Source: Thermosyntropha sp.
GTDB taxonomy: Bacteria; Bacillota; Syntrophomonadia; Syntrophomonadales; Syntrophomonadaceae
Direction of reading: 5' to 3'
DNA length: 64,000 nt
NCBI RefSeq assembly: GCF_017656155.1
Contig: NZ_JACDOH010000005.1
Span: forward strand, 122,678 to 186,677
A program made the position numbers and the translations under genes. Positions 6,075 through 36,712 of the stretch are shown piece after piece; position 1 is the first letter of the stretch; every line of letters starts with the position of its first letter. The notes under the pieces were generated by a model. It had not been told where the DNA came from. It searched no databases and was given only the letters and a program-made list of their open reading frames with translations.

Positions 6075-6101
6075 AAAAAAAGCTGGTTCAAATAACCAGC
6101 C
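6075..6101 (-). terminator. Factor-independent terminator after the GT-C gene
   Basis: On the minus strand a GCTGGTT/AACCAGC stem with a five-base loop (6082-6100) is followed by seven T. It closes the amino-sugar operon and separates it from spoIIIAA. Confidence 0.85.
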
Positions 6102-6137: not shown

Positions 6138-8117
6138 TCAGTTCATTTTTTCAAAAATAACCACTGCTTCATTTTCAAACTTTTTGACAAAGAGGCCGGC
6201 AGAATCAAACCTGAGCTTCTGCCTGGCGTGTTTATCAACTATGAGGTAATCAATTTTATATTTATCCAATATATCTTCAGCTTTTTTTCGGTCATGGGTA
6301 AAATACAAAACAGTCATATCTTCATATCTCTTATACGCTTCCTTCTGACGGCTAACCGGCATATACTGCCACCCTTCAACTAAAATACGCCTTTCGGCAA
6401 AGGCTGAATAGTAAAAAAATCTAGGATTATCTTCACTGATTAAAAATACCCTGCGTGCACCTATTACCGCATCTTTGTTCGTATTATCCCTTAAAAATAT
6501 CAATCCTTCATAAAGTCCGGGAGTTAAAGGTTTATTATTAAGTGACATCAGTTTTGTATTTATACCTTCTGTTTTCTTAACCATCCCCCAGGTATCTCCA
6601 ATAGATACCAGAAGCAAAATAACAATTACCAATTTTATTATCCCGGCTTTTTCTGCCTTTATCACCTTGTATAAATAGCCTGCTGCTAAAATATTAAGGC
6701 ATATGTAACCTACAAATAAAAAGTAATACTGGGAATCCCCCCGGTAACTCAAGATATAAGCAGGTATAAAGCTTATCAGAACTGTTGCTCCTAAAAAAAC
6801 CTTATCTGAAGATATGTTTTTAGTCCTGCTAAAAAATCCTCTTATAAAATCAATATACGCCAGAAGCCTGAAGCTGAAGAAAGCCAGCAAATAAAAAGGT
6901 ATAAAAGCTAAAATACTCCATAAGTTTTCTATCTCGAAATGGCTGCTGTATATCCTGTAAATATAAGTATTTTTCATAATCTGCAGAGGAACCAGGTTAA
7001 ATCCTTCTCCTCCCGGCCTTAATCCATATATGTGAAAATAAACCATTATAAACACTAAAAAGCTTCCGCAAAGTAAATTAACATACCTTCTTAAATTATT
7101 TTCACCAGTTAAGAAAGCATATAAAAAAGCTAAAAAAATCCCGCCAAATATAACCGGGAAAAAACTTCCCTTGGCACCGCTGACGGCAAAAACCAGCAGC
7201 AGGATTAATACAAAATTCCTCTCTCCTGATAAATAATCCCTTATCTCAACTATAAGAAAAAGAGTAATCAAAACAGCCAGGAAAAAAGTAGGGCTGAAGA
7301 AAAAATTTTTCAGAAAAACATTATAGGGTGATGATAACAAAGCAGTTCCTGCAAACATAAATACAAAAGAATTAATAATCCCTGGATCCCGATTTTTATA
7401 CCACCTGCTTCCTGCAAAATAAGCGGCAAAAAGCAATAAATAAATGAACAGGATAATATAAAGGCGTAAAAAGAGAAGTGATATTGAAATATCAGTCATA
7501 AAAGAAAGAAAGGCAATAAAAACATAAAAAAAGACATGATAGTGGAAAGGAAATCCGCTGATCCTTATATCTTCCGGAGGCCAGTGGTTTTTAATCTCAG
7601 CTATATTGCCTATATGCCAGGGAAAATCCACATTATATATGACAGCCTCTTTTCCCGGCAAAATATTAGGGATAAAATACATCTCTATGGTCAAAAGCAG
7701 AACCAAAAAAGAAAAAGATACCAATAAACCGAAGTATTTGGCCGGGGTTTTTTCCACCATTTTTTTTATTATATTAAAATCCTGCCTCAGCCAGCCATTG
7801 GCGATATATACAACAAATACAGCAGCAAAAAATAAATAGAACCAGGTTTTAAGATTTAATAGAGCAAATATAATATATAAAATTATATCTAAAGCTATTC
7901 CCACAACCAAAGCAAGAAAAAGCTTATAAGGCTCATCTCTATAAACACCCATGAAGTTAATAAAAACTAACCCCGGTATAAAAACACACAAAAATATACA
8001 TATAAAGAATTTTAAAATATCCTGCCACGCGGCTGAATAATAGTTTAATATTACAAGATTTAATATTATATAAACAGTCACTATAATCCATCTTGCTGAT
8101 TTCAGAGAAATACTCAT
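6138..8117 (-). CDS. GT-C type membrane glycosyltransferase (polyprenyl-phosphate-sugar dependent), acceptor unknown
   Basis: A 659-residue protein with about 12-13 membrane segments over residues 10-500, then a soluble C-terminal domain of about 150 residues. The overall plan fits GT-C transferases that move a sugar from a polyprenyl phosphate carrier. Acidic and histidine residues in an early outer loop (NVDFPWHIGN, about 162-171, and FPFHYH) would suit the catalytic site. The tail (LRDNTNKDAVIGARR, LVEGWQYMP, YLIVDKH) is the type often seen at the end of such proteins. It is the last gene of the rmlB operon, 22 bases after the ABC ATPase. Family rank and acceptor are inference. Confidence 0.65.
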   Translation of the reverse strand: MSISLKSARWIIVTVYIILNLVILNYYSAAWQDILKFFICIFLCVFIPGLVFINFMGVYRDEPYKLFLALVVGIALDIILYIIFALLNLKTWFYLFFAAVFVVYIANGWLRQDFNIIKKMVEKTPAKYFGLLVSFSFLVLLLTIEMYFIPNILPGKEAVIYNVDFPWHIGNIAEIKNHWPPEDIRISGFPFHYHVFFYVFIAFLSFMTDISISLLFLRLYIILFIYLLLFAAYFAGSRWYKNRDPGIINSFVFMFAGTALLSSPYNVFLKNFFFSPTFFLAVLITLFLIVEIRDYLSGERNFVLILLLVFAVSGAKGSFFPVIFGGIFLAFLYAFLTGENNLRRYVNLLCGSFLVFIMVYFHIYGLRPGGEGFNLVPLQIMKNTYIYRIYSSHFEIENLWSILAFIPFYLLAFFSFRLLAYIDFIRGFFSRTKNISSDKVFLGATVLISFIPAYILSYRGDSQYYFLFVGYICLNILAAGYLYKVIKAEKAGIIKLVIVILLLVSIGDTWGMVKKTEGINTKLMSLNNKPLTPGLYEGLIFLRDNTNKDAVIGARRVFLISEDNPRFFYYSAFAERRILVEGWQYMPVSRQKEAYKRYEDMTVLYFTHDRKKAEDILDKYKIDYLIVDKHARQKLRFDSAGLFVKKFENEAVVIFEKMN

Positions 8118-8139
8118 TTTACACTACTTCCCTTTTTAT

Positions 8140-8889
8140 TTATGGATTATCATCAGAACCCAGCAAAGAATAAAGTATATCCCACATAGCTGAAAATCCC
8201 TTCATGCTGGGTCTGCGGGGACGCTCAAGATGGCTTTCTATGATAGTTTTAATTCTCCCCTGTTTTGACATAACTAAAATGCGGTCTGCCAGTATAATTG
8301 CCTCATCAATGGCATGAGTAACAAAAATTATGGTCGGCTTCAGTTCCTGCCAAATTTTAAGCAACTCCTTTTGTAAAACTTCTCTGGTCTGGGCATCAAG
8401 ATTAGCAAAAGGTTCATCCATCAGCAAAATCTCAGGGTTTAGGGCTAAAGCGCGTGCCAGTGCCGTCCTCTGCTTCATCCCGCCGGATAGTTGATGGGGA
8501 TAGTAATTTTCAAAACCCTCCAACCCCATCATTTTCACATATTTACGAACATACTCATTCCGTTTCTGTTTACTTACGCCTGTAATTTTCAAAGGATACT
8601 CAATATTTTCTTTCACCGTCTTCCAACTGAAAAGCTGTTCAAAACTCTGAAAAACCATAACCCGGTCAATGCCCGGTTCCGTAATCTTTTTACCATCTAT
8701 TAATATCTGCCCCCCGGATATTTTTTCATATCCTCCAATACTCCTTAAAAGAGTAGTTTTACCGCAACCTGAAGGGCCAACAATACAGAAAAATTCTCCA
8801 GAATTCACAGTAAAATCTATGTCTTTTAAAACATGAATAAAAGAACCGTTATTTTTAAAAACCTTATTCACACCTTCAAGCTGCAGCAT
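8140..8889 (-). CDS. ABC transporter ATPase, SsuB/TauB type
   Basis: ATPase of a nitrate/sulfonate/taurine-class importer. Seen: Walker A GPSGCGKTT near residue 42, Q-loop VFQSFEQLF, signature LSGGMKQRTALARAL, Walker B ILLMDEPFANLD and switch histidine FVTHAIDEA. The ATG at 8889 follows AGGAGGA by eight bases and lies after the permease stop; the longer frame to 8922 would overlap the permease. It works with the permease at 8904-9692 and the lipoprotein at 9698-10741. Confidence 0.9.
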   Translation of the reverse strand: MLQLEGVNKVFKNNGSFIHVLKDIDFTVNSGEFFCIVGPSGCGKTTLLRSIGGYEKISGGQILIDGKKITEPGIDRVMVFQSFEQLFSWKTVKENIEYPLKITGVSKQKRNEYVRKYVKMMGLEGFENYYPHQLSGGMKQRTALARALALNPEILLMDEPFANLDAQTREVLQKELLKIWQELKPTIIFVTHAIDEAIILADRILVMSKQGRIKTIIESHLERPRRPSMKGFSAMWDILYSLLGSDDNP

Positions 8890-8903
8890 TAACCCTTCTC
8901 CTC

Positions 8904-9692
8904 CTAAATACTCATACCCCATTTTCGAACAGTTAATCTCTCCACCACATTAAAAACAAACACTTCAACAATTATCCCTACCATTACAATAGCTAAAAGA
9001 GCAGCAAAGGTAGCGGCCATGTCGAAATAATAACGGGTCATATATATATGCCATCCCAAACCACCGGCCGTTCCAGACGCAGCCCCGAAAACCATTTCGG
9101 CTGCAATAACTGCCCGCCATGCCCTGGCCCAGCCGATTTTAAGACCGGATAAAAAATAAGGCAGGGAAGCAGGCAAAATTATTTCCCATAAAAACTTAAT
9201 CCCTTTTAAACCGAAAGTCTGCCCTAATTCAATATAAACAGAAGGAACAGATTTAAAACCGGTTTTTATGTTTACCAGCATAGGCCAGAGTACCGAATGT
9301 ATAACTATAACCAATATGCTGGTTTCCCCTATCCCAAACCATAATATAGCTACCGGAAGCAGTGCTATACCAGGCAAAGGATGAAATATAGAATTCAACG
9401 CATCTGCTATATCTTCTACCCATCTCGATGACAGAGCAAAAAAAGCTATTAAAAGAGCTATGATGAGGGACAGAACCAAACCTTTCAATATGAGCAAAAG
9501 TGAATAAACCGTTTTAACTACTAGAACACCACTTATTACACCTTTGGCAAATTCTTTAAAAACCTTGGAAAAAGGGGGAAACAAGGCCTGGTCGAATATT
9601 CCACTCCAAGCAGTCAGTTCCCAAAGCAAAACGAGCAATACAATAAATATAAACTTGGGCAGCATCTCTTTTTTAAACCATAAGCTCTTCAC
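8904..9692 (-). CDS. ABC transporter permease, SsuC/TauC type
   Basis: About 262 residues with six or so membrane segments and the EAA loop (ELGQTFGLKGIKFLWEIILPASLPYFLSG has the usual EAA---G pattern) of binding-protein-dependent importers. The GTG at 9692 has AAAGGTG six bases upstream and follows the binding-protein stop; an earlier GTG at 9701 overlaps that stop. Substrate class cannot be read from the permease. Confidence 0.88.
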   Translation of the reverse strand: MKSLWFKKEMLPKFIFIVLLVLLWELTAWSGIFDQALFPPFSKVFKEFAKGVISGVLVVKTVYSLLLILKGLVLSLIIALLIAFFALSSRWVEDIADALNSIFHPLPGIALLPVAILWFGIGETSILVIVIHSVLWPMLVNIKTGFKSVPSVYIELGQTFGLKGIKFLWEIILPASLPYFLSGLKIGWARAWRAVIAAEMVFGAASGTAGGLGWHIYMTRYYFDMAATFAALLAIVMVGIIVEVFVFNVVERLTVRKWGMSI

Positions 9693-9697
9693 AAACT

Positions 9698-10741
9698 TCA
9701 CCTTTTAAACTGCAGTTTTTCGATAGCCGACATTTCGCCATATTTTTTGCCGATTGCAGCCTGAACATTTTCAAAGGCTATATCCGCAATGCTTTCCGGC
9801 ATTTTCTCAATATAACCGGCTTTTTTCATGAATTCGGCAAAATACATAAGTCCATAAGGGGTTGAGCAATAGTTGGTACCTTCCCAGGTTAAATACTTAT
9901 AAGTTTGTTCTTCACTCAGATTATACTGTTTTGCCAATATGGCAGCTGCTTCTTCAGGATTATTATTTATAAAAGCTACCGCCTCATTAAAAGCAGCTAT
10001 AAAAGCCGCATAAGCAGCCGGATTAGAGTCATGGAATTTTTCGGTTGCTACTCCAAAAATAAAAGTATACTCACCGCCAAAAGCTTCCTCTCCGGTAAGA
10101 ATTTGATGAAGCCCCGGATCAGACAATTCTTCAAACAGGTAAGGCGGAGATGCAAAATGAGCAGTTACATCTTTTTTAGCTTTTAAAGCAGTCATAGCAT
10201 CAGGATGAGTCAAAGATATCATTATATTGTCCAAAGCCCGGGCATCCCCTAATTCTCTTTCTGCTGCCATGGAAAGAAGTATATGCTGGATGCTGGCAAT
10301 AGCCGGTGTAGCAATCTTATCATCAAAGCCCAAATCTTTTATACCCTTTACCCCATCTTTATAAGTCATCAAAGCTAAGGGCTGACTGCACGAAGCAGTT
10401 GCTATCTTCCATTTAACCCCCTTGTCCCAGCCGATGAGAAAAGGGGATATACCCATAAATCCTATGTCTACATCGCCTGTAACCATGGCATCCCTTATTG
10501 CAGGGCCGGTACCCATCTGCTTCCACTCTACCTGGGCTGTCGGCAGGTACTTTTCAATCAAGCCCTTGCTCTCCATTATCTGCAACGGGGCATAGCCTAA
10601 GCCATACTGAATGGCAATAGTAATTTTGTTAACCTGTTTTTCTGGAGAAACAGAACTGTCGTTTTCCTGTTTGCATCCTGTCAATAAACTGCTGACAGCG
10701 AAAACTAAAATCAAAGCAAGTATAAACCCTTTCTTTTTCAC
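9698..10741 (-). CDS. ABC transporter substrate-binding lipoprotein, NMT1/SsuA-like
   Basis: A 347-residue binding protein with a lipoprotein signal (lipobox LLTGC, cysteine at residue 23) and an SsuA/NMT1-like fold: KITIAIQYGLGYAPLQIMESKGLIEKYLP is the usual opening strand-helix. Relatives bind nitrate, aliphatic sulfonates, taurine or thiamine pyrimidine precursors. It starts with GTG behind GGAGAGAAGG, 24 bases after the ATP-grasp gene, inside the amino-sugar operon. The ligand is unknown; the context suggests a small building block for the glycan modification, but chance insertion into the operon is possible. Confidence 0.85.
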   Translation of the reverse strand: MKKKGFILALILVFAVSSLLTGCKQENDSSVSPEKQVNKITIAIQYGLGYAPLQIMESKGLIEKYLPTAQVEWKQMGTGPAIRDAMVTGDVDIGFMGISPFLIGWDKGVKWKIATASCSQPLALMTYKDGVKGIKDLGFDDKIATPAIASIQHILLSMAAERELGDARALDNIMISLTHPDAMTALKAKKDVTAHFASPPYLFEELSDPGLHQILTGEEAFGGEYTFIFGVATEKFHDSNPAAYAAFIAAFNEAVAFINNNPEEAAAILAKQYNLSEEQTYKYLTWEGTNYCSTPYGLMYFAEFMKKAGYIEKMPESIADIAFENVQAAIGKKYGEMSAIEKLQFKR

Positions 10742-10765
10742 AACCTTCTCTCCTTCCCCACCATT

Positions 10766-12016
10766 TTACATAAAGCAAACCATATTTTCACCTGAACCAT
10801 CAATAATCTCAACCTTTTTGTATGCCTCAATAACCTTTCTTTCTAAATCTTTACGATTCCTCCCTTCTACCAGCAAATATCCTAACCGGCATGTACTATC
10901 TACCAACGGTCTTATTTCTTTAATATCCGGCTTATAAAAGCCTGCATTAACTACCCCCGGCATTTTTTTAACCTGATCAAGGCTTCTGACTTCTTTGACT
11001 TTTCCTGGTTTTCCTACAATAAATTTGACCATAGCATATTTATTATTTGATAAAAGATCATAGTTTTTAATTTTACATATATCTACACTTCGGCCTATAG
11101 ATTTCTCAATAAATATATCAACTATATCTATTCCAGAAACTAAAGGAATAAGTTCTTCTTCATGTCCTCCTCCGATTCTGCAGGCCACTTCCACTACTTC
11201 CAGATTATTTCCATTGACTATCATCTGAATATATATCGGACCTGAAAATATATTAAATGCCTTAACTATCTTTTCCACTACCTCTTTAATCTTTTCATAG
11301 TGGCTAAATGTATAAATTGATGGAAAAACATGTCCATCTGGTATCCCTAAGTGAGGCTCAACATTGAGTAAAGGCCGGTCGGTTATCATCAGAATATAGG
11401 GGATTAAGTCCTCTACCCAGGCACTTACGGTTATTTCGTCTCCATGACAAAATTCTTCTACTATAATCTCATCTGCCCAGGTAAAAGCAAAAGTCTGGTT
11501 CATAAAAGAAACAACATCATCTTCCAAGCTGTAAATCTTAAAAACCCCTCTCTGCCCCTGACTGTCGATAGGCTTTACAACGATAGGAAAATTCAAAGCA
11601 GATAAGCGTTTATAAAGATCAGTTTTATCCTTTAAGTCCTCCTTTTTCACCATCAAATAACGGCTGGAAGGAATATCGTTATTTACAAAAACCTCCTTCA
11701 TATACTTCTTGTTAGTTGCCCATAAAGCAGTTTCCGAACTTATCATGCGGGGAAGGCCAAAGGCTTCAGCCACCTTAGCTGCAGTTAAAACCGGCTGGTC
11801 GGTTCCTATGGTAAAAACTCCGTCAATTCCATATTTCCTGGCGATTTCGATATTACCTTCAATATCAAAGGTGCTTACCATCTCCGCAAAATCGGCCAGT
11901 TTTTTTCCCGGAGCGTCGGGCAGATAATCAGCTACAATAACCGTGAGCCCTTTAGCTTTTGACCTCCTTATTGCATTTATCTGCATAAAACCGCCGCCTA
12001 ATATTAATACCTTCAT
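10766..12016 (-). CDS. ATP-grasp carboxylate-amine ligase of unknown substrate
   Basis: About 416 residues in the layout of PurK/carbamoyl-phosphate-synthase-type ATP-grasp enzymes: an N-terminal Rossmann-like preATP domain (MKVLILGGGFMQINAIRRSK), a central ATP-grasp with FPIVVKPIDSQGQRGVFK near residues 145-162, DEIIVEEF and the metal-binding VVEVACRIGGGHEE near 270-283, then a small C-terminal domain. The ATG at 12016 has GGAGG six bases upstream. Such enzymes join a carboxylate to an amine through an acyl phosphate. Lying between a glycosyltransferase and sugar-nucleotide genes, it may acylate the amino sugar with an amino acid; this is inference. Confidence 0.8.
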   Translation of the reverse strand: MKVLILGGGFMQINAIRRSKAKGLTVIVADYLPDAPGKKLADFAEMVSTFDIEGNIEIARKYGIDGVFTIGTDQPVLTAAKVAEAFGLPRMISSETALWATNKKYMKEVFVNNDIPSSRYLMVKKEDLKDKTDLYKRLSALNFPIVVKPIDSQGQRGVFKIYSLEDDVVSFMNQTFAFTWADEIIVEEFCHGDEITVSAWVEDLIPYILMITDRPLLNVEPHLGIPDGHVFPSIYTFSHYEKIKEVVEKIVKAFNIFSGPIYIQMIVNGNNLEVVEVACRIGGGHEEELIPLVSGIDIVDIFIEKSIGRSVDICKIKNYDLLSNNKYAMVKFIVGKPGKVKEVRSLDQVKKMPGVVNAGFYKPDIKEIRPLVDSTCRLGYLLVEGRNRKDLERKVIEAYKKVEIIDGSGENMVCFM

Positions 12017-12028
12017 AAAATCCTCCAT

Positions 12029-12937
12029 TTAAAGCTGTAATTCTTTTATTTCATAAGGTGGTTTATCATTTAACATCTCCCTACGCAAACCCTTTATATA
12101 TCTGGCTGTAACCAGGAAAGATAAAAGGTTTAACAAAGTTAAAAACCATAAAATGATAAAAGCCAGCTTATCGAAAAAATATTTCATAGGAGCAACAAAT
12201 AATAAAACAGAAGCTATGCTGAGTACGGTAAAAAACACCAGCCATATAAAAACAGTTATTTTTAAAGGCAGATCAGAATGATTAAATACCAGATTTAATG
12301 CTAATCTGGCAGCTTTTTTTATGCTGTAATTGCTCCTGCCATATTTCCTGGCATCGTGTTTAACCTTAATACAGGCTGTATTAGAAGTATTTTCAAAAAT
12401 AAGTCCTGCCAGATAAATCTCTTTTCGTTTACAATTACTCAAAAGCTCTGCTAATCCTTTTCTTATAATCCTGAAGCTGCTCACCTTTAAATCAGGAGGC
12501 TTGTCATAAATTACATTGAGGGATTTATCAATTAAACGATTCCCTAAGTTCCTGTAAAAACTGTGTTTTTTGTCTTCAGCTATGCCAAAAACTATATCAT
12601 AGCCTTCTTCAATCTTATCAATAAGCTTTACAATCTCCTCCGGAGGATGCTGCAGGTCATCATCCATAGTAATAACATAATCACCGCTGCAGTAGCGCAT
12701 ACCGCATAAAGTCGCATTATGCTGGCCGGAATTAAAGGCTAATCTTATCAGCTTTACCCTTTTATCTTTTTCCCTTAATCTGCACATCATCTTATAGCTT
12801 TCATCCCGGCTGAAGTCATCAACCATTATAATTTCAAAATCTAGACCTTTTTTTCCCATTACTTCTTTAATCCTGTCATATAGCTCCTCTAAGCTTTCAG
12901 CTCCGTTATATACCGGAATAACTATTGAAATCATCAT
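12029..12937 (-). CDS. GT2 glycosyltransferase, DPM1/ArnC/GtrB-like, with C-terminal membrane anchor
   Basis: A 302-residue family-2 transferase expected to load a sugar onto undecaprenyl phosphate at the inner face of the membrane. Seen: SIVIPVYNGAESL at the N-terminus, MVDDFSRDES, the DDDLQHPPEE metal-binding motif near residues 92-101, and two membrane segments at about 230-250 and 262-285. It lies 19 bases after the aminotransferase. The pairing of this protein type with a GT-C transferase in one operon is the usual two-step polyprenyl-linked glycosylation plan. Confidence 0.85.
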   Translation of the reverse strand: MMISIVIPVYNGAESLEELYDRIKEVMGKKGLDFEIIMVDDFSRDESYKMMCRLREKDKRVKLIRLAFNSGQHNATLCGMRYCSGDYVITMDDDLQHPPEEIVKLIDKIEEGYDIVFGIAEDKKHSFYRNLGNRLIDKSLNVIYDKPPDLKVSSFRIIRKGLAELLSNCKRKEIYLAGLIFENTSNTACIKVKHDARKYGRSNYSIKKAARLALNLVFNHSDLPLKITVFIWLVFFTVLSIASVLLFVAPMKYFFDKLAFIILWFLTLLNLLSFLVTARYIKGLRREMLNDKPPYEIKELQL

Positions 12938-12956
12938 AAACTTTCCTGCCTCAACT

Positions 12957-14099
12957 TTATTCTAAAGCATTTAAAAGCCGGCTGAGATTTTTTAGGATAT
13001 ATTCCTGCTTTTCCTCCGTTAAATCAGGATAAAGTGGAAGCCTCAGTATGGTGGAAGCTGCTTTTTCCGTAACCGGCAAATCCCCTTCTTTATACCCCAA
13101 TCTTCTCCCCATAGGCGAAAGATGCAAAGGCATATAATGGATAACTGCTTCTATGCCGACCTTATTCAGCCCTTCTTTAACAAAATTCCTGTGTTCCTCC
13201 GAAGTAAAAAGCAAATAAAAAATATGATAATTGGAAACTGCATAAGAAGGTATAAAAGGAAGCCTAATTAAACCTTTTTTCTCATATTCCAGTAAACTTT
13301 CATAATAACGCTCATAAACCTTCCGCCTAAAATCATATATAATATCTAATTCTTCCATTTGTGCATATAGATAGGCAGCAAGCAAATCAGCCGGAGTATA
13401 GCTTGAACCTACATCAACCCAGGTATATTTATCAACCATACCGGCTAAAAACGCCTGCCGGTTAGTCCCTTTTTCCCACAGATATTCTGCTCTCTTAATC
13501 ATTTTAGGGTCTATATTATTAAGAAGAATAGCTCCCCCTTCGCCACAGGTATAATTTTTGGTAGCATGAAAGCTGTAACACCCTATATGCCCTATAGTTC
13601 CGAGATATCTATCTTTGTATAAGGCATTTACGGCTTGAGCCGCATCTTCAATTAAAAATAATCCGTTCTCTTTTGCAATATAAAGAAGTTTATCCATATC
13701 ACAGGCTATTCCTGCATAATGAACCGGAATAACCGCTTTAGTTTTTGAAGTTATTTTCTTTTCTACATCTTCAGGAGATATATTTAAAGTCAGCCCGTCA
13801 ATATCTGCAAATACCGGCTTAGCTCCCCTAAGCATTACCGCATTAGCGGTGGAGGTAAAAGTAAACGAAGGCATAATAACCTCATCTTCAGGACCCAGGT
13901 TAACAAGGAGAGCTGCCATTTCCAATGCAGCTGTGCAGGAAGTAGTAAGCAAAACTTTTGAAGCTTTAAACTTACCACATATAAAATCCTGCACCTTCTT
14001 AGTATAAAATTTGCCCTGTCCCCCCTGACTCTTTATACAGTTATTTATATAATAAATTTCACGACCTGTAGTATAAATCTGATTAAAGGGAATCTTCAT
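12957..14099 (-). CDS. wecE: DegT/DnrJ/EryC1-family sugar aminotransferase, close to WecE/RffA
   Basis: PLP-dependent enzyme expected to convert dTDP-4-keto-6-deoxyglucose to the dTDP-4-amino-4,6-dideoxygalactose type. The sequence follows WecE closely: KVLLTTSCTAALEMAALL, DEVIMPSFTFTSTANAV, VIPVHYAGIACDMD, EDAAQAV and SFHATKNYTCGEGGA, which holds the PLP lysine. The ATG at 14099 is used because its GAGG site and the rmlA stop at 14104 both fit; the frame is open seven codons more. About 380 residues, normal for the family. The symbol is by resemblance; exact product stereochemistry is not proven. Confidence 0.88.
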   Translation of the reverse strand: MKIPFNQIYTTGREIYYINNCIKSQGGQGKFYTKKVQDFICGKFKASKVLLTTSCTAALEMAALLVNLGPEDEVIMPSFTFTSTANAVMLRGAKPVFADIDGLTLNISPEDVEKKITSKTKAVIPVHYAGIACDMDKLLYIAKENGLFLIEDAAQAVNALYKDRYLGTIGHIGCYSFHATKNYTCGEGGAILLNNIDPKMIKRAEYLWEKGTNRQAFLAGMVDKYTWVDVGSSYTPADLLAAYLYAQMEELDIIYDFRRKVYERYYESLLEYEKKGLIRLPFIPSYAVSNYHIFYLLFTSEEHRNFVKEGLNKVGIEAVIHYMPLHLSPMGRRLGYKEGDLPVTEKAASTILRLPLYPDLTEEKQEYILKNLSRLLNALE

Positions 14100-14103
14100 A
14101 GCT

Positions 14104-14841
14104 TTAATCCTCTGAAACAATTATTTTATTATCAATTTCCAGCATAATTCTGTTGGCATAAGCCAGTGATTCAAAAGTCCCGGCATCAGTCCATTCGCCT
14201 TCCAAAAGGTCATAATAAAGCTGATTTAAACTGATATAAAAATTATTTACCGGGGTAATCTCATATTCTCCATGAGCATTAGGCCTTATCTGACGAATTA
14301 TATCAAAAACCTTTTCATCATACATATATATACCAATAACTGCATATTGACTCTTGGGATAAAGCGGTTTTTCCTCAATCTCAACTATCTTAAGCTCATC
14401 TAATGCAGCTATACCAAATCTTTCAGGATCTTCAACCTTGCGTAAAAGTACACGGGCCCCCTCTTTTTGCTGACGAAACCTGTCAACATATTTCTTTATG
14501 CTGTGAGTAGCAATATTATCGCCTAAAATAACAACGATTTTTTCTCCTCGAGCAAAATTTTCAGCAAGAAGCAGTGCATTTGCTATGCCTAAAGGTTCTT
14601 CTTGAACCTTAAAAGTAAAATCGCAGCCAAAATCTCTCCCGCTTCCTAAAAGACGCACAATCTCCCCCATATGCTCCTTTCCGGTAACCACCATAATATC
14701 AGTAATACCTGCAAAAATTAGCTGTTTTACCGGATTAAAAATCATAGGTTCTTTTCCTACCGGCAAAAGATGTTTATTAGTTACTTTAGTAAGAGGGTAT
14801 AAACGGGTTCCCCTACCCCCTGCCAGTATTACTCCTTTCAT
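14104..14841 (-). CDS. rmlA: Glucose-1-phosphate thymidylyltransferase
   Basis: Makes dTDP-glucose from dTTP and glucose-1-phosphate. The nucleotide-binding signature GVILAGGRGTRLYPLT starts at residue 3, followed by PVGKEPMIFNPV, and EYEITPVNNFYI with the GEWTDAGTFESL tail. At about 245 residues it is of the short class lacking the extra C-terminal helices of RmlA long forms. The ATG at 14841 follows GAGGTGG and overlaps the rmlB stop by four bases. Confidence 0.92.
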   Translation of the reverse strand: MKGVILAGGRGTRLYPLTKVTNKHLLPVGKEPMIFNPVKQLIFAGITDIMVVTGKEHMGEIVRLLGSGRDFGCDFTFKVQEEPLGIANALLLAENFARGEKIVVILGDNIATHSIKKYVDRFRQQKEGARVLLRKVEDPERFGIAALDELKIVEIEEKPLYPKSQYAVIGIYMYDEKVFDIIRQIRPNAHGEYEITPVNNFYISLNQLYYDLLEGEWTDAGTFESLAYANRIMLEIDNKIIVSED

Positions 14842-15881
14842 ATTCCACCTCTTTTTCGCCAATTTGTAATGCGTTTTTTGGCATTTCTAAGCCACTTTTG
14901 ATTCCGCAAATACCATTCTATGGTTAACCTTATCCCTTCTTCAAAGCTTACCTCAGGACGCCAGCCCAAGTCATCTCTTATTTTGCGGGAATCTACTGCA
15001 TACCTGAAATCATGCCCTTTGCGGTCTTCCACAAAAGTTATTAAATCGTAATTTATCATTATCCGCCTTTTATCATCATAAGGCAAAAGTTCCTTGAGCA
15101 AATCTATTATGAGCCGAATCAATCGGATATTTTCCATCTCACAATTGGCACCTATATTATATATCTCGCCTGCTTTGGCCTGATTAGCTATATAATCCAC
15201 TGCCCTACAGTGATCTTTAACAAAAATCCAGTCCCTTATATTCATACCATTTCCGTATACAGGTACAGGTTTATTATTTAAGGCATGTTCAATGACAAGA
15301 GGAATTAATTTTTCCGGTGACTGAAACGGCCCGTAATTATTAGAACACCTGGTTATATTAACTGGCAAGCCGTAAGTTTTATAATATGCCTCTACCATTA
15401 GATCAGCCGATGCTTTAGAGGCAGAATAAGGACTGCTGGGCTTTAAAAGCGATTTTTCCGTAAAAAAACCTTGTTCTCCCAAAGAACCGTATACCTCATC
15501 AGTTGAAATCTGAACATATTTAGAAACCGAATATTTAAGAGCATAATCTAACAATACTTGAGTTCCTGAGATATTAGTGTAAGTAAAAATACGGGGATAA
15601 TTTATGCTTCTGTCCACATGAGATTCTGCCGCAAAGTTTATAACTATATCCGGCTTATACTTATTAAAAACTAACTCCAAAGCTTTACGGTCATTAATAT
15701 CAGCCCTTATAAAAAAATAGTTATTTCTGTCCTGTATGTTTTCTAAATTTGAAAGATTGCCTGCATAAGTAAGTTTATCAACATTTATTACTAAAACCTC
15801 ATCACCATATTTTTGCATAAGATAATGTATAAAATTGGAGCCTATAAAACCAGCCCCACCAGTTATCAAATAAGTTTTCAC
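14838..15881 (-). CDS. rmlB: dTDP-glucose 4,6-dehydratase
   Basis: Converts dTDP-glucose to dTDP-4-keto-6-deoxyglucose. NAD-binding TGGAGFIGSNF is near residue 8, the catalytic STDEVYG near 123 and the YSASK catalytic pair near 150; NYGPFQSPEKLIPL and GNGMNIRDWIFVKDH are family hallmarks. The GTG start at 15881 is set by GGAGG seven bases upstream. First gene of a nine-gene operon running to 6138. RmlC and RmlD are absent nearby, so the product is not dTDP-rhamnose here. Confidence 0.93.
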   Translation of the reverse strand: MKTYLITGGAGFIGSNFIHYLMQKYGDEVLVINVDKLTYAGNLSNLENIQDRNNYFFIRADINDRKALELVFNKYKPDIVINFAAESHVDRSINYPRIFTYTNISGTQVLLDYALKYSVSKYVQISTDEVYGSLGEQGFFTEKSLLKPSSPYSASKASADLMVEAYYKTYGLPVNITRCSNNYGPFQSPEKLIPLVIEHALNNKPVPVYGNGMNIRDWIFVKDHCRAVDYIANQAKAGEIYNIGANCEMENIRLIRLIIDLLKELLPYDDKRRIMINYDLITFVEDRKGHDFRYAVDSRKIRDDLGWRPEVSFEEGIRLTIEWYLRNQKWLRNAKKRITNWRKRGGI

Positions 15882-15918
15882 GGCTAAACCTCCAGACAGA
15901 ATTATATAAAATAAAACC

Positions 15919-15954
15919 AAATAAAGGGAAAAGTACAGGCTTTTCCCTTTATTT
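15919..15954 (-). terminator. Terminator after the rhodanese gene
   Basis: A 14-bp AATAAAGGGAAAAG stem with a six-base loop follows the rhodanese stop and is trailed by a T-rich run on the minus strand. It would also end transcripts from the left on the plus strand. A TATAAT at 15901-15906 lies just downstream but too close to the rmlB ribosome site to be assigned as its promoter. Confidence 0.75.
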
Positions 15955-15975
15955 AATCATTATGTTTATTATTAT

Positions 15976-16887
15976 TTATTTTTCTACAGGAAGTCCAGCA
16001 GGTACCCAACCTAAATCAAACCCGCTTTTGACAGAGTAGGCATCTACTCCTAATACTTTCAAAACAGCGACGGTCTGGCCTGCTGTTTGGCCTGTATAAC
16101 AATAAATATATACTGGTTTATCTTTAGGAAACTCATCAAAATGTTTGTTAACTTCTTTGAACGGAATATTTATTGCTCCTTTAATATGACCTTTTGCATA
16201 ATCTTCAGGAGAGCGGATATCCACTATCATCATATCCTGACCTGCATCTATCTTCTTTTGCAAATCTTCTGAAGTTATAATATTTTTATTTTCAGGCAGT
16301 TTGGCAAAATAATCCTTTAAAATGGAAGCTATTTCTTTATCCACTTCAGCAGGCTTTACATCAGCAGGAAGTTCATTTTCAACTGTATCTACCGGGAAAT
16401 TATTTTCTCCCACCCAACCTTTATTAAATCCAAAATGCAGGGATCTCGCATTATAGCCGTACATATTCATAATAGCAACCGTTTGCCCTGCTGTTTGACC
16501 TGTATAACAATAAACAAATATTTCCTTATCTGAAGGTATTTTGTCTAAATACTCATGCATTTTTGCGAAAGGGATATTAACTGCCCCTTTAATATGTCCT
16601 TTGGCATAATCTTCAGGAGAACGGATGTCAATTATTAAAATATTTGCGTCCCCAGCATCTATTCTTTCTTTTAACTCGGGAGAATTAATCTTATAGATAT
16701 GTTCAGGCATTTGTGCAAAATACGCATCTGCTATCTCACGAATATCAACGGTTTTTTGAGCAGCAGATTGATCAGTTTCGGGAACATTATCAGCTTCCTG
16801 GCTTTTACCACAACCTACTGCTAATGTGGCTAAAAGCATTACCACCAATAAAACCGCAAGCCATCTGGTTTTTACATTTTTAAACAT
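15976..16887 (-). CDS. Double-rhodanese lipoprotein
   Basis: A 303-residue extracytoplasmic sulfurtransferase-like protein. The lipobox LAVGC puts the lipidated cysteine at residue 26. Two near-identical rhodanese domains follow (about 65-165 and 200-300), each with IDIRSPEDYAKGHIKGA and the active-site loop CYTGQT; catalytic cysteines are about C127 and C263. Both loops are intact, unlike many tandem rhodaneses in which one copy is dead. A GGGGAGG site precedes the ATG. Its neighbour across the LysR gene is a polysulfide/thiosulfate-reductase-like complex, which suggests a role in handling sulfane sulfur outside the cell. Confidence 0.9.
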   Translation of the reverse strand: MFKNVKTRWLAVLLVVMLLATLAVGCGKSQEADNVPETDQSAAQKTVDIREIADAYFAQMPEHIYKINSPELKERIDAGDANILIIDIRSPEDYAKGHIKGAVNIPFAKMHEYLDKIPSDKEIFVYCYTGQTAGQTVAIMNMYGYNARSLHFGFNKGWVGENNFPVDTVENELPADVKPAEVDKEIASILKDYFAKLPENKNIITSEDLQKKIDAGQDMMIVDIRSPEDYAKGHIKGAINIPFKEVNKHFDEFPKDKPVYIYCYTGQTAGQTVAVLKVLGVDAYSVKSGFDLGWVPAGLPVEK

Positions 16888-17251: not shown

Positions 17252-18178
17252 ATGTATTTTAATCATTTTGAAATAATACCTATCGTAGCCGAAACTAAAA
17301 GTTTTTCCAAAGCAGCTAAGCTTCTCCATCTATCCCAACCTGCTATCAGCAGCAAAATTAAGGATATAGAAGATTACTACGGGCTAAAACTGTTTCACCG
17401 GACTGCCCAAGGGGTAACTCTTACAGAAGCAGGCAAAATAGTAAATGCATATGCAGTTAGATTTGTTAATCTGCACCGCGCAATGGATGAAGAATTAAAA
17501 CAGCTTCTAAACCTCAACAGCCCTAGTCTGACGATAGGTTCAAGCTGCACTGTGGGCAACTATGCCATGCCCAGTTATATAAAACTTCTTAAAAGCCGTT
17601 ATCCAGATATAAGTATAAAACTTGATATAAGCAATACCCGGGGTATTTTAGATAAATTAGCCAAAAAAGAAATTGATGTAGCAGTAATAGAAGGAAACAT
17701 AGATAACCCTAATTTTGCTATTCACCATATTACAAACATTAAATTAGCCTTTATCGCCTCATATGATTCAAAAACAGTGAAAAAAAAAGAAATCTCTATA
17801 GCCGAGCTGCGTTCTAAGCCTTTGGTGATCCGTGAAGATGGAGCAGCTGTCAGGCAAATCTTTGAAAATGTTCTAAAAGAGTATGGCTATAAGCTGGATC
17901 AATTTAATATAGTAACAGAAATGACCAGCATCCATTCTGTTAAAGCAGCAGTACAAGATGATATCGGTATATCACTTGTCCCTGAAATCACCATTCAAAG
18001 GGAAATTTCCAACAAATTGTTAAAAACCATAAAAGTTAAAGACCTTGATCTCAAAATGGATATTAATCTGGTACACCTAAAAACAGAAAACCTTTCTCCT
18101 CAAGCCCAAAAATTTATCGACCTTATGCTAAACTCCCAAAAAAGTGTTTTTTGCTGGGAAAATAAGGTTTTCGATTAA
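17252..18178 (+). CDS. LysR-family transcriptional regulator
   Basis: A 308-residue regulator with an N-terminal winged helix-turn-helix (FSKAAKLLHLSQPAISSKIKDIEDYYGLKLFHR at about 19-51) and a two-lobed effector domain (about 92-300). A GGGGGAGAAGG site precedes the ATG. It is the only plus-strand gene in this part, placed between the rhodanese lipoprotein and the molybdopterin oxidoreductase operon, so it may control one or both. The last residues (FCWENKVFD) are free of features. The effector is unknown; CysB/CysL-type sulfur sensing is one possibility. Confidence 0.92.
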   Translation: MYFNHFEIIPIVAETKSFSKAAKLLHLSQPAISSKIKDIEDYYGLKLFHRTAQGVTLTEAGKIVNAYAVRFVNLHRAMDEELKQLLNLNSPSLTIGSSCTVGNYAMPSYIKLLKSRYPDISIKLDISNTRGILDKLAKKEIDVAVIEGNIDNPNFAIHHITNIKLAFIASYDSKTVKKKEISIAELRSKPLVIREDGAAVRQIFENVLKEYGYKLDQFNIVTEMTSIHSVKAAVQDDIGISLVPEITIQREISNKLLKTIKVKDLDLKMDINLVHLKTENLSPQAQKFIDLMLNSQKSVFCWENKVFD

Positions 18179-18251: not shown

Positions 18252-19196
18252 TTAAGGGTAATAAGTAAGTATAGGATATACTATTTGTCCACCATAAACT
18301 ATTACATACCTTAATATGAAACCACCTATTAAAACCATAATCGGTTCTGCCCATGGAACAATCCCTGCCATCCCACCTTTTATCTTATCTCCAACTTCCA
18401 TAATTCCTAGAATAAGGGGAATAGTAAGCCCAAACAACACTACGCCTATCCAGAATAAGAGATAATAACCACCGGTAATTATAGCCCCAAGCGCAACTTG
18501 ACCAGTAGGCCTTAAAGCATAGCTTATCAGCAGGGTTGATATTACCATAAGTTCAACTACTATAAAAACTGCATCAACTATCAAAATCCTTTTTAAAAGC
18601 TTGTGGTCAAATGTCAGCAAAATCCTCTCCGGCTGCCAATTTGAAGGCAAAAACTTCCGCACAAAATCCTCAATTTTATCCCATACTTTTCCAATCAGCA
18701 TAAGGCTGCATATTCCGGTAGAAAGGGCAGATATAAAAAATAAAAATGCGATAAGCGGATTGCTCCAAACCGGGTTATTATAAATAGCAGCTAAAAGCAA
18801 ACCTGCATAAACACCTATGGCTATCCCGAAAATGAGCTCAAGCCAGGCAAATATTCTTCGCCACACATTATCTATATTCCAGTAAACCATAGCTGCAAAA
18901 ATAAATGCAACCATGGGAAAAACCAAGAGGAAAAATGCACCCCAGGACATAACTGAAGTTATGTTATAGTGAATCAATACCTTATAAAAGTTCCAGGGAC
19001 GGTGTAAATCCAAAATCAAACATAACAATCCCAGCAACACAGGAAAAGGCGCAAAATAAGCAGCAACTCTTTTTAATCTTTCATCCATACCATTAACTAC
19101 ATAACCAACGGCAGCCACAATCCCTGCCCCTGAAGAAATCCCTGCCGTAAAAAGATAAATAGCAATCAAATAATTCCAGGTAAAATGATGTTCCAT
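18252..19196 (-). CDS. NrfD/PsrC-type membrane anchor subunit
   Basis: Membrane quinone-interacting subunit of a complex iron-sulfur molybdoenzyme. About 314 residues with eight or so membrane segments; the first helices contain FTAGISSGAGIVAAVGYVV and the ILDLHRPWNFYKVL stretch typical of PsrC-like proteins. The ATG at 19196 is used because GGAGGTGATT, which includes the stop of the ferredoxin gene, lies just upstream. It would carry electrons between menaquinone and the catalytic subunit; direction depends on the substrate. Confidence 0.88.
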   Translation of the reverse strand: MEHHFTWNYLIAIYLFTAGISSGAGIVAAVGYVVNGMDERLKRVAAYFAPFPVLLGLLCLILDLHRPWNFYKVLIHYNITSVMSWGAFFLLVFPMVAFIFAAMVYWNIDNVWRRIFAWLELIFGIAIGVYAGLLLAAIYNNPVWSNPLIAFLFFISALSTGICSLMLIGKVWDKIEDFVRKFLPSNWQPERILLTFDHKLLKRILIVDAVFIVVELMVISTLLISYALRPTGQVALGAIITGGYYLLFWIGVVLFGLTIPLILGIMEVGDKIKGGMAGIVPWAEPIMVLIGGFILRYVIVYGGQIVYPILTYYP

Positions 19197-19202
19197 CAAC
19201 AA

Positions 19203-19760
19203 TCACCTCCGATAAGGAATAATAAATACATTAGGATGAGTTTTAAGATCCGGTCTTCTTTCTACCGCACCTTTAGCCATCCATTTGTTAATTTCACTAT
19301 CAGGGTTATTTAAATCCCCGGTAATAATAGCACCTGCAATACATGAAGCTTCACAGGCTGGTTTTTCTCCTTTCTCTAAACGATGGGTACAGAGAGTACA
19401 CTTTTCCGGCAAGCCTCCATGTTCTCTTTCATTCATAACTCTTACTCTATAGGGACAGGCTAAAACACAATAGCCACATCCTATACAAAGGTCAGGGTTT
19501 ACTTCAACTGTTCCCCATTCAGTATAATGGGAAGCTTTAGTAGGACATGCATCAACACAAGGAGCCTTCTGGCAATGATTACAGGACCACTTTTCAGTAT
19601 AGCGATAAACATTAGGGAAAATCCCTTCTTCATGTTCAATTATTTTTGTTCTGAACTTGTCGTTAGGCACCTTATTTTCAGCCAGGCAAGCCACACTGCA
19701 GGCATGGCATCCTACACACTTATTAAGGTCAACTATTTTGCCCCACCTTTTTTTAGCCAT
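19203..19760 (-). CDS. Four-cluster ferredoxin subunit, PsrB/DmsB-type
   Basis: Electron-transfer subunit with four [4Fe-4S] sites. The 185 residues contain CVGCHACSVACLAEN, CNHCQKAPCVDACPTKA, CIGCGYCVLACPYRV and CTLCTHRLEKGEKPACEASC in the usual order. Its ATG overlaps the TorD stop by eight bases and follows GGGAGGG. It links the NrfD anchor with the molybdopterin subunit. Confidence 0.93.
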   Translation of the reverse strand: MAKKRWGKIVDLNKCVGCHACSVACLAENKVPNDKFRTKIIEHEEGIFPNVYRYTEKWSCNHCQKAPCVDACPTKASHYTEWGTVEVNPDLCIGCGYCVLACPYRVRVMNEREHGGLPEKCTLCTHRLEKGEKPACEASCIAGAIITGDLNNPDSEINKWMAKGAVERRPDLKTHPNVFIIPYRR

Positions 19761-20373
19761 CTATTTCCCTCCCTTTAATTTCCTTAAGTACCCTGTTAAA
19801 CAAATTTTCGACTATCATGGCCGCTCCTCGGTAAAATACAGTCTCCGCATGATTTCTAATCTCTTTGGCAAAAAATGGAACCCATTTTGTCACATGTCCA
19901 TCTATGAATTCTTCTACTGCCTTAAGATATAATCCCTGACGGCTTTTCTCATATTCTTCCAGCATAACCGCTATAAACTCAAGTTCCACTAATATATGGT
20001 CGGCAGGAATAGATTGGCTTAAATCATAATTCAGTCCATAAGCAGCATAAAAATTCAAAATACTTCTATCACTTTCGCCAAAAACAATCTCATCTCCCAT
20101 ATACCAGCCGGCAAAAGGATGCGCTTTTGCAGTAGGAACTCCATTTATAAAAAGCCTGGTAAAATCCACCTCAAGCTTCTCTAGCTCAAAATATCCAGAC
20201 TTAAGCAGATTTTTAAATTCAATTATATCAGTTAAATCAGATCCTTCTGTAAATTGTACGAGATTAAGCATATTTTGCCTGTTTTGATTAAGCCTTTCCT
20301 CTTCAGGATAAACAAACAGCTCTTTTGCTGCCCAAAATAAATCAGCATCTATAGATATCTCAGACATTTCCAT
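19753..20373 (-). CDS. TorD/DmsD-family molybdoenzyme chaperone
   Basis: About 206 residues, all helical, with the family patterns DHILVELEFIAVML (about 130-143) and HVTKWVPFFAKEI. Such chaperones bind the twin-arginine signal of the partner oxidoreductase and help insert the cofactor before export. The ATG at 20373 overlaps the stop of the catalytic subunit gene (TGATG); a GTG one codon earlier is the alternative. Confidence 0.87.
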   Translation of the reverse strand: MEMSEISIDADLFWAAKELFVYPEEERLNQNRQNMLNLVQFTEGSDLTDIIEFKNLLKSGYFELEKLEVDFTRLFINGVPTAKAHPFAGWYMGDEIVFGESDRSILNFYAAYGLNYDLSQSIPADHILVELEFIAVMLEEYEKSRQGLYLKAVEEFIDGHVTKWVPFFAKEIRNHAETVFYRGAAMIVENLFNRVLKEIKGREIDG

Positions 20374-22592
20374 CACACCTTCCTGACCTTTACGATCACA
20401 TGACAGTCCATGCTGGCTCCCACTGGATCTTTTAAAGTCATGTTTACCTCTTTCGGGTAGGCAGGCATTATCCTGGAATCATTAGGCCCGTTATTATAGG
20501 CTAACTTAATGTAGGGTGATTTATTTCCAAATCCGTGTAAAACACATATAGTATCTGGTCTTATACCTTGTATAAGCTTTGCTTTTCCCGTCTCTTTTCC
20601 GTATTTAGAGCTTAGCTCTACCATGTCTCCATCTTTTATACCCAGCTTTTCTGCCTTCGCAGCATTAATATAAATAAAGCCTTCTGGCATAATAGCATGT
20701 AGCCATCTCATATTATGGGTTTTCGAATGACGATGCATAGGAGGTCTGCTAGTTACCAGATAAAACTCGTCATCAGCTTTAGGTTCAATAAGCCAGGTTT
20801 CATCAAACCAGGGCAGAGGATTATAACCCAGTTCTTTTAATTTGGGAGAGTAAATTTGAATCTTTCCGCTTTCAGTCCTTAAAGAAGTCAAATCCTTAGG
20901 AGTAAATTTCTGGCTGCCATTTAAAATTCCGCCTTTTTTAAGAGCATCCTTATAAGTTAATCCATATCTTTTAAGCTTATAATCTAAAACCTTTTCCCCA
21001 TGCGGAGGCATATATTTATCTACTCCAAGCTTTTTAGCTAATAAATATTTAATCTCATCCACTTCTTTGGTATCATAAAGTTTTTTAACCATAGGTTCAG
21101 CCACTGCTATTTGATAATAACGGGCATTAGTTATACGCGGTGATATATGAGGCGTTTCCAAATAAACTGATTCCGGAAGTACCAGGTCAGAAATAGTTGC
21201 CATATCATCAGGATAAATATTTATATTTATGACATAATCTAATTTTTCGAAAGCCTTCAGCCACTTCTCAGTCTCCGGCATAGATTGTAAAGACTGACCG
21301 TAAACAACAGCTACTTTAACCGGATAAGGTTCTCCCCTTAAAATCATATCCGGAACACTTTGGTAAAGGCCGGTTCCACTTAAAGGTTTGGGGACAGCTA
21401 ACGGGAAAAGATGTCCTCCATCTATTCTCTCAGTTACCTGCAATTCCGGAGGTTTCTCTTTGGGCTTAGGATAATTTAAAGGTGCAATGCGGGGTAAAAG
21501 CGCTCCTCCTCTTCGCTCGATATTTCCGGTTATAGCCATCATAGCCAAACAAGCTCTAGCCAGCTCAAACCCTCCTGGTCTTACCTGAATGGCTTCTCTT
21601 TTATGGATGGGAATGACTGCCGGACATCCACCGCTGAACTCATGCGCTATACGCCTGATAGTCCCCGCCGGAACATCACTTATCTTCGAAGCCCATTCCG
21701 GAGTATATTTCTTAACCTCTTCTGCCAATTCTTCAAAACCCTCAACATATTTAGCTACAAAATCAGCATTATATCTACCCTCAGAAATAATTACATTAAG
21801 CATAGCCAGGACTACTGCCAAATCAGTTCCCGGCCTGATTGGTATCCACTCATGAGCCTTGGAAGCAGTAGTAGAAAACCTTGGATCAAAAACCACAACT
21901 TTGGCATTATTTTTAATTTTTCCTTCAATTAAGCCTCTAGCCAGCGAGTTTTTAGCTTTTCCCAGCTGATCCCATCCAAAACAAAGAATATACTTGCTGT
22001 TTTCAAAATCAGGCACATAATTAGCTACACCCAGGGTTATTCTGGTCGCCATGATTCTTACAGCATTACAGGTTGACTGATGGTTTATATTGTTAGGACT
22101 CCCAATGGCCCTTAAAAAATCAGTGCCTTTGTTATGCCCTATCCATATAACTGATTGAGGGCCGTATTTTTCTATTGCTTTTTGGATTTCTGATGCTGCC
22201 CTGTTAATAGCCTCATCCCACGAGATTTTCTTCCACTTAGGATCCTGCCCCGGAATCCTTCCCGGTGCCGTTTTAAGTAAAGGAGCCTTTAGACGATCCG
22301 GATCATAAAGCATATTAATCCCCGAGTTGCCTTTGGCACAAAGTGCCCCCCTGCTGTGCTGATCTTTTGGTTTTCCCTCCAGCTTAACCAGTCTGCCGTT
22401 TTCTATTTTCCCTAAAAAAGCACAGTTCATCTCACATATTTCACAAACCCCATGCTTATATTCTATTCTGGGAGCTGCATAAGCAGGTGCTTCAGGATTA
22501 TTAAAAAGGCTGTTTCCTAATATTCCTGCACCAGCTATAGCTGCTATACTTCCACCACCCAGTTTAAAAAACTCCCGTCTGGTTAAACCCAT
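20373..22592 (-). CDS. Molybdopterin oxidoreductase catalytic subunit, PsrA/PhsA-like
   Basis: A 739-residue bis-MGD enzyme. A twin-arginine signal (TRREFFK at 4-10, hydrophobic to about 31) shows export. The N-terminal [4Fe-4S] site has cysteines at about 50, 53, 57 and 85. Cys175 (STCNAVR) is the likely molybdenum ligand, as in polysulfide, thiosulfate and arsenate reductases. The C-terminal molydopterin-binding domain begins near TSRPPMHRHSKTHN. The four genes catalytic-TorD-ferredoxin-NrfD form one operon. With the nearby rhodanese lipoprotein, polysulfide or thiosulfate is the favoured substrate; arsenate or tetrathionate cannot be excluded. Confidence 0.88.
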   Translation of the reverse strand: MGLTRREFFKLGGGSIAAIAGAGILGNSLFNNPEAPAYAAPRIEYKHGVCEICEMNCAFLGKIENGRLVKLEGKPKDQHSRGALCAKGNSGINMLYDPDRLKAPLLKTAPGRIPGQDPKWKKISWDEAINRAASEIQKAIEKYGPQSVIWIGHNKGTDFLRAIGSPNNINHQSTCNAVRIMATRITLGVANYVPDFENSKYILCFGWDQLGKAKNSLARGLIEGKIKNNAKVVVFDPRFSTTASKAHEWIPIRPGTDLAVVLAMLNVIISEGRYNADFVAKYVEGFEELAEEVKKYTPEWASKISDVPAGTIRRIAHEFSGGCPAVIPIHKREAIQVRPGGFELARACLAMMAITGNIERRGGALLPRIAPLNYPKPKEKPPELQVTERIDGGHLFPLAVPKPLSGTGLYQSVPDMILRGEPYPVKVAVVYGQSLQSMPETEKWLKAFEKLDYVININIYPDDMATISDLVLPESVYLETPHISPRITNARYYQIAVAEPMVKKLYDTKEVDEIKYLLAKKLGVDKYMPPHGEKVLDYKLKRYGLTYKDALKKGGILNGSQKFTPKDLTSLRTESGKIQIYSPKLKELGYNPLPWFDETWLIEPKADDEFYLVTSRPPMHRHSKTHNMRWLHAIMPEGFIYINAAKAEKLGIKDGDMVELSSKYGKETGKAKLIQGIRPDTICVLHGFGNKSPYIKLAYNNGPNDSRIMPAYPKEVNMTLKDPVGASMDCHVIVKVRKV

Positions 22593-30441: not shown

Positions 30442-30464
30442 TTTATTTCCTCCTGTCCCACCTT

Positions 30465-32144: not shown

Positions 32145-32155
32145 AGTCCCCCTCC

Positions 32156-32686: not shown

Positions 32687-32722
32687 CAGCCTTCACCCTC
32701 AATCTGTTAACAACCTTTATTC

Positions 32723-33879: not shown

Positions 33880-33907
33880 TTTTCTACAACTCTCAAAGCA
33901 AAATGTT

Positions 33908-34306: not shown

Positions 34307-34416
34307 AAAACATCTCCTCCTTAATTATTCAGTCCCATGAAGTAAAATTTAAGACAGGCAATTTTCCCTTTCTCACTCTCACCCCCTTCAAAGGAGCAGT
34401 TTTACGTTCGTTACCC

Positions 34417-35634: not shown

Positions 35635-35650
35635 AATATACCTCCTCCCC

Positions 35651-36709: not shown

Positions 36710-36712
36710 CTT

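Follow-up and report, generated by a model that had tools for sequence, protein, structure and literature searches.

A conserved amino-sugar, ATP-grasp ligase and membrane-transferase module found beside sulfur-handling genes in anaerobic Firmicutes

Within a 64,000 nt stretch of a Thermosyntropha sp. genome (assembly GCF_017656155.1, contig NZ_JACDOH010000005.1, positions 122,678 to 186,677; the whole stretch is termed 'the window'), nine minus strand open reading frames (ORFs) at 6138-15881 form an operon encoding, in order, RmlB, RmlA, WecE, a family 2 glycosyltransferase (GT2), an ATP-grasp ligase, a three-gene ATP-binding cassette (ABC) importer and a large polytopic membrane protein. This arrangement is beyond chance, as about ten families share its gene order. 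Sequence comparisons make it well supported that dTDP-amino-sugar synthesis, a putative polyprenyl-phosphate GT2, the ATP-grasp ligase and a membrane transferase form a unit, and the module is nearly always located beside genes handling thiosulfate and other sulfur compounds. With moderate confidence, it can be viewed as a dedicated pathway that would place a single modified sugar on an extracytoplasmic target, the acceptor probably being a sulfur-handling protein.

The original prediction of a nine-gene operon was borne out, and the interpretation given with it is supported in part. Each of the nine ORFs lies on the minus strand, and they are tightly packed, with intergenic gaps of 24 bp or less or short overlaps. 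The genes, and the hairpins that flank them upstream and downstream, are as follows.

15915-15958, minus strand: intrinsic-terminator-like hairpin between the rhodanese gene and rmlB (19 bp stem and T-rich tail; shuffle z -5.5)
14838-15881, minus strand: rmlB, dTDP-glucose 4,6-dehydratase (TIGR01181, 457.7 bits, above cut-off)
14104-14862, minus strand: rmlA, glucose-1-phosphate thymidylyltransferase (Pfam NTP_transferase, 5e-56)
12957-14120, minus strand: wecE, dTDP-4-amino-4,6-dideoxy sugar transaminase (NF008687 and TIGR02379)
12029-12937, minus strand: GT2 of the ArnC/PgfS/GtrB type (Pfam Glycos_transf_2; nearest NCBIfam models ArnC and PgfS, below cut-off)
10766-12028, minus strand: ATP-grasp carboxylate-amine ligase with LAL_C2 domain (Pfam, AlphaFold and Foldseek)
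9698-10741, minus strand: SsuA/TauA-class substrate-binding lipoprotein (Pfam NMT1_2; NCBIfam SsuA_fam below cut-off; PDB 2x26, SsuA, 1e-9)
8904-9701, minus strand: ABC importer permease (BPD_transp_1)
8140-8922, minus strand: ABC importer ATPase (ABC_tran; nearest NCBIfam model SaoA, below cut-off)
6138-8117, minus strand: polytopic membrane protein of about 15 transmembrane (TM) segments with a soluble C-terminal domain; putative, family-specific glycosyltransferase of the GT-C class (topology and position)
6081-6101, minus strand: intrinsic-terminator-like hairpin past the last gene (8 bp stem, then a T run)

Two of the enzymes assigned to the dTDP-4-amino-4,6-dideoxyhexose pathway, RmlB and WecE, exceed the cut-offs of curated models, in keeping with the earlier assignment; WecE scores 515.8 bits against NF008687 (cut-off 375) and 451.6 against TIGR02379 (cut-off 434.85). 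For rmlB the start codon is the GTG at 15881, which follows a GGAGG sequence and lies within a longer ORF that extends to 15920. RmlA, at 252 aa, is 86% identical in Thermosyntropha lipolytica and best matches TIGR01207, below its cut-off (232.7 against 360.65). The GT2, likewise, falls below the cut-off of its best NCBIfam match, the ArnC model NF007986 (145.7 against 529); it has two C-terminal TM segments, which are missing from the shorter GT2 proteins of most relatives.

Relatives were sought in 54 genomes of the window's own family, in a sample of 398 genomes of the phylum and in an order of 38 genomes, and are referred to by genome (G), locus (L) and family (f) numbers. The order of these genes, which might have proved unique to this genome, was instead found to be widespread: the wecE-GT2-ATP-grasp core could be read from the DNA of 21 genomes in about ten families (f1, f6, f14, f45, f56, f65, f79, f97, f101 and f111). 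In T. lipolytica DSM 11003 (G001) the nine genes occur in identical order between a rhodanese gene and spoIIIAA, while in G020, from a second genus of the family, wecE, GT2 and ATP-grasp genes are followed by those for the substrate-binding protein, permease and ATPase, an LPG_synthase_TM protein, a GT-C-like protein and then a molybdo-reductase operon of the type found in the window. The importer directly follows the ATP-grasp gene in most core loci; in f14 and f56 an EamA/SMR half comes before it, ArnE-like EamA/SMR halves lying inside the cassette in two families. Contig ends interrupt the importer slot in G056 and G173, and that of G087 has no ATPase. WecE does not adjoin the module in G102. 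The pairwise distances of six module proteins correlate with one another (0.66-0.89).

Other amino-sugar loci were also encountered. The window's own genome harbours a second, separate one with DegT aminotransferases (L053, C4:198000-215050). Two other Syntrophomonadaceae (L051 and L052) carry another type of Arn-like ATP-grasp locus, comprised of RmlB, a GT2, a distant ATP-grasp protein (25%), two small EamA/SMR-like proteins and a WecE homolog, together with rmlA in L052.

The ATP-grasp ligase is not a housekeeping enzyme, the possibility that had been named as undermining the original prediction. Its LAL_C2 domain scores 51.4 in Pfam, above the cut-off of 29.4, and its AlphaFold model has a predicted local distance difference test (pLDDT) score of 93.5. 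The nearest structure identified by Foldseek is the uncharacterised 4dim, and the neighbours of known function, in profile as in fold, are the L-amino-acid ligases RizA (4wd3) and BL00235 (3vot, TM score 0.8), PurT and PurK being more distant. Unlike these fold relatives, the window protein belongs to an ortholog group tied to the module. A single-sequence scan of genome contigs gave no match to it and profile searches were required; these recovered orthologs in 19 of the 398 genomes at E < 1e-130, cleanly separated from the best other ATP-grasp protein at 6e-83. With 4dim and the L-amino-acid ligases closest to the model, the natural reaction would be to form an amide with the free amino group of the sugar.

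The original prediction described the glycan genes but left out the secreted rhodanese upstream and the sulfur-metabolism setting, which consists of the following features.

15976-16887, minus strand: exported double-rhodanese lipoprotein upstream of the operon (Pfam Rhodanese, two domains)
17252-18178, plus strand: divergent LysR regulator (NF040786, 227.7 bits, just below the cut-off of 250); LysR genes recur at the module
18252-22592, minus strand: PhsABC/PsrABC-like molybdo-reductase operon (NrfD-type, iron-sulfur, TorD and molybdenum cofactor subunits), which also adjoins the module in G020

Sulfur genes recur at the module in most families read. The recurrent neighbours include exported double rhodaneses, split or whole Sulf_transp (YeeE/TsuA-type) transporters, a Pyr_redox_2 flavoprotein, a Pyr_redox_2-rhodanese fusion and LysR, with a split-Soret cytochrome and NrfH in f14 and some others. 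A profile of the window's rhodanese family found members in 15 of the 398 genomes, 14 of which hold the ATP-grasp ortholog (hypergeometric 8e-21, given the ligase in 19 genomes, a value uncorrected for phylogeny). In a second type of rhodanese, all 18 orthologs end in an invariant QD[AG]S tip that follows a linker of variable sequence, and the tip is found in none of the rhodanese paralogs read. In the order to which G265 belongs, which we take to be Halanaerobiales, the tailed rhodanese and the ATP-grasp ligase are present in exactly the same 18 of 38 genomes; in one of the relatives, G288, they lie on different contigs, the rhodanese well inside its own. This lipoprotein family is found at L096:3905-4825, L106:3738-4664 and L131-L148. 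That QD[AG]S might be a general sorting tag was considered and rejected, as a pattern search of six genomes found, among all the loci it returned, the only full-length bearer to be one rhodanese in each genome having it.

The last gene of the operon had been proposed to encode a GT-C protein. Outside family f1, nearly all relatives have a PMT_2-type transferase for this slot, within the cassette or close to it and mostly convergent with the importer genes; the PMT_2 domain is above cut-off in L096, L102 and L114, and an acidic HSDE motif in the first loop is invariant in all eleven aligned proteins from the slot. The window protein, by contrast, has no family match in Pfam, NCBIfam or PDB, even at E=5-10 for Pfam and PDB, and hhalign comparison with the PMT_2 alignment found no relation (0.7% probability). 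An AlphaFold model built from four sequences was unusable (pLDDT 47.9). Its family is found in four of 54 genomes of its own taxonomic family and in none outside it among the sampled genomes of the phylum; restricted as it is to a few Syntrophomonadaceae, it fills the slot of the PMT_2 transferase. The two families being unrelated by profile, the slot appears to have been refilled in this lineage, and the window protein is a putative GT-C enzyme on the grounds of its approximately 15 TM segments and its position.

In the pathway favoured here, RmlA, RmlB and WecE would make a dTDP-4-amino-4,6-dideoxyhexose, most likely Fuc4N, which the GT2 would load onto polyprenyl phosphate in the manner of ArnC or Dpm1. 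Before or after this step, the ATP-grasp ligase would link a small carboxylate to the 4-amine through an amide bond; the importer would most likely supply this acid, or a molecule from which it is made, perhaps of the organosulfur kind. The last step would fall to the large membrane protein, of the PMT_2 type in most relatives and an unrelated replacement here, which would transfer the sugar to an acceptor outside the cell, probably a protein handling the sulfur of thiosulfate or polysulfide, such as an exported rhodanese. With a single GT2 and a single membrane transferase present, a single-sugar decoration is implied. Similarly, the WecE product, the Dpm1/ArnC-like GT2, the EamA/SMR halves, the PMT-type transferase and the lack of any other glycosyltransferase all point to one lipid-linked sugar destined for an outside acceptor, EamA/SMR halves in the cassette being what a lipid-linked sugar would require.

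Parts of this scheme resemble known systems. The Arn pathway (ArnABCDEFT), which forms undecaprenyl-phosphate-linked 4-amino-4-deoxy-L-arabinose, likewise uses a nucleotide 4-amino sugar, a GT2 (ArnC) that the module's enzyme may resemble and a GT-C transferase, putative in the window, for single-sugar decoration, with EamA/SMR flippase halves shared by some relatives of the module. Arn, however, employs a UDP-pentose in place of the dTDP-hexose made by RmlAB and WecE, and the module differs in having the ATP-grasp ligase, the importer and the sulfur setting; neither the ArnA formyltransferase nor the ArnD deformylase family was detected among the operon proteins by Pfam or NCBIfam. Protein O-mannosylation by Dpm1 and PMT (GT39) offers a second parallel, as most relatives pair a Dpm1-like GT2 with a PMT_2-type transferase containing HSDE, although the module has a different sugar and a ligase, and there is no PMT_2 protein in the window's own family.

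Several observations weigh against the favoured pathway. The window's membrane protein lacks detectable homology to any GT-C enzyme. Thermosyntropha has no tailed rhodanese, and a pattern search there found no full-length protein ending in QD[AG]S; relatives in f14 have cytochromes in place of the rhodanese. Two genomes, G124 and G311, have the core without an SsuABC-like importer in the slot, and the importer family occurs without the core in many genomes. The co-occurrence statistics for rhodanese and ligase, finally, carry no correction for shared ancestry.

The step most open to another explanation is that of the importer. Although it accounts for three of the nine genes, is SsuABC-like and is conserved, it was omitted from the mechanism first proposed. 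The nearest solved relatives of its binding protein bind sulfonates (SsuA, 1e-9; TauA, 4e-5), and since they do, an imported organosulfur carboxylate may be an attractive, if unproven, substrate for the ligase. None of the curated SsuABC/TauABC models was passed: SsuA_fam scored 106.8 against 163.5, and TauC, NtrB and SsuC were all below cut-off. The best NCBIfam relatives of the ATPase and permease are instead subunits of the Sec-assisted organometallic (SAO) importer SaoXPA, again with all of the window's subunits (8140-10741) below the curated cut-offs (SaoA, 272.6 against 360; SaoP, 94 against 295; SaoX, 34.4 against 300). It is a real possibility, though one we hold to be somewhat less probable than not, that the importer is a sulfur-nutrition transporter merely sharing the operon, and that glycine, alanine or another ordinary amino acid is what the ligase takes; one step of the favoured pathway would then differ, and the rest could stand. 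Such an explanation fits the two cassettes without an importer and the occurrence of the importer family alone in many Firmicutes genomes, the binding-protein profile having matched 48 of the 398 in all. It fits, too, the importer tree, in which cassette and stand-alone importers are intermixed; those of the cassettes fall into more than one clade, and a single origin for them was rejected. The neighbours of the stand-alone importers (DUF441, MFS and M23) gave no clue to the substrate. Against it stands the position of the importer directly 3' of the ATP-grasp gene in nearly all other cassettes, including those of the distant families f1, f6, f65, f79 and f101.

A different acceptor would be involved if the module decorated an ordinary envelope polymer or lipid, filling the role of ArnT in Gram-positive and diderm Firmicutes, with the sulfur genes nearby on account of a common regulator or habitat. 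The Arn-like chemistry, the EamA/SMR flippase halves and a membrane transferase that differs between families, as if the acceptor differed, all agree with this. We nevertheless think it unlikely, while deserving of attention, as rhodanese and ligase occur together almost without exception, in part regardless of whether they are neighbours, as shown by the separate contigs of G288, and sulfur genes recur in most of the families read.

In size, one sugar bearing one ATP-grasp-formed amide also matches a small thiol cofactor, and in a sulfur context the product could be a lipid-linked or released small molecule, such as a mycothiol-like amino-sugar thiol, with no macromolecule being modified. This appears improbable given that a PMT/ArnT-type transferase, an enzyme that acts on macromolecules or lipids, is kept in most relatives. 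The same chemistry might, on a speculative and quite improbable view, furnish a glycosyl prosthetic group on the exported rhodanese, at the flexible C-terminal QD[AG]S tail where present, with a thiol- or sulfur-bearing carboxylate in amide linkage to the 4-amino sugar; this would be a swinging arm that carries sulfane sulfur, in a role like that of the SoxY arm. Modification of spores or pili, which the original prediction named among the places to check, can be dismissed as highly improbable: spoIIIA lies directly downstream in the window and in T. lipolytica, and pilus genes are present in the window, but spoIIIA is absent near the module of G020, which keeps the sulfur neighbourhood, and was not seen among the neighbours of other relatives. 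The window's large type IV pilus/type II secretion cluster, at 28278-38404, is ordinary.

Clostridia provide a precedent for the proposed modification. Type B flagellin of Clostridium difficile bears a tetrasaccharide that ends in the amino-dideoxyhexose Fuc3N, amide-linked to Gly-Ala-taurine; a dehydrogenase and a gene of the D-alanine-ligase type have tentatively been made responsible for the peptidyl moiety, and rml genes have been implicated (PMC5207245). Although an importer and rhodanese of the type found with the module are not described there, this glycan shows by analogy that amino sugars can carry amide-linked, sulfur-containing acyl groups, as the module may. The setting, too, has parallels: in Halanaerobium, the reduction of thiosulfate by way of a rhodanese has been connected with the sulfide that forms in fractured shales (PMC5497025). 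An exported rhodanese is shared with that system and with the Sud/Psr polysulfide systems, and in the window it adjoins the module, as does a Phs/Psr-like reductase, although a glycosylation module is absent from those descriptions as far as found. Literature searches of incomplete coverage found no description of the locus, of a link between rhodanese, YeeE and glycosyltransferases, or of an ATP-grasp protein with WecE; each enzyme class is known, and it is their combination and the tie to sulfur loci that look new.

Were the prosthetic-group proposal true, it would represent a glycosyl cofactor for sulfur chemistry outside the cell. Under the favoured pathway, glycosylation of the envelope would be tied to the dissimilatory handling of sulfur in anaerobic Firmicutes, among them a group we presume to be Halanaerobium, with the C-terminal QD[AG]S tail of the rhodanese as a defined candidate peptide.

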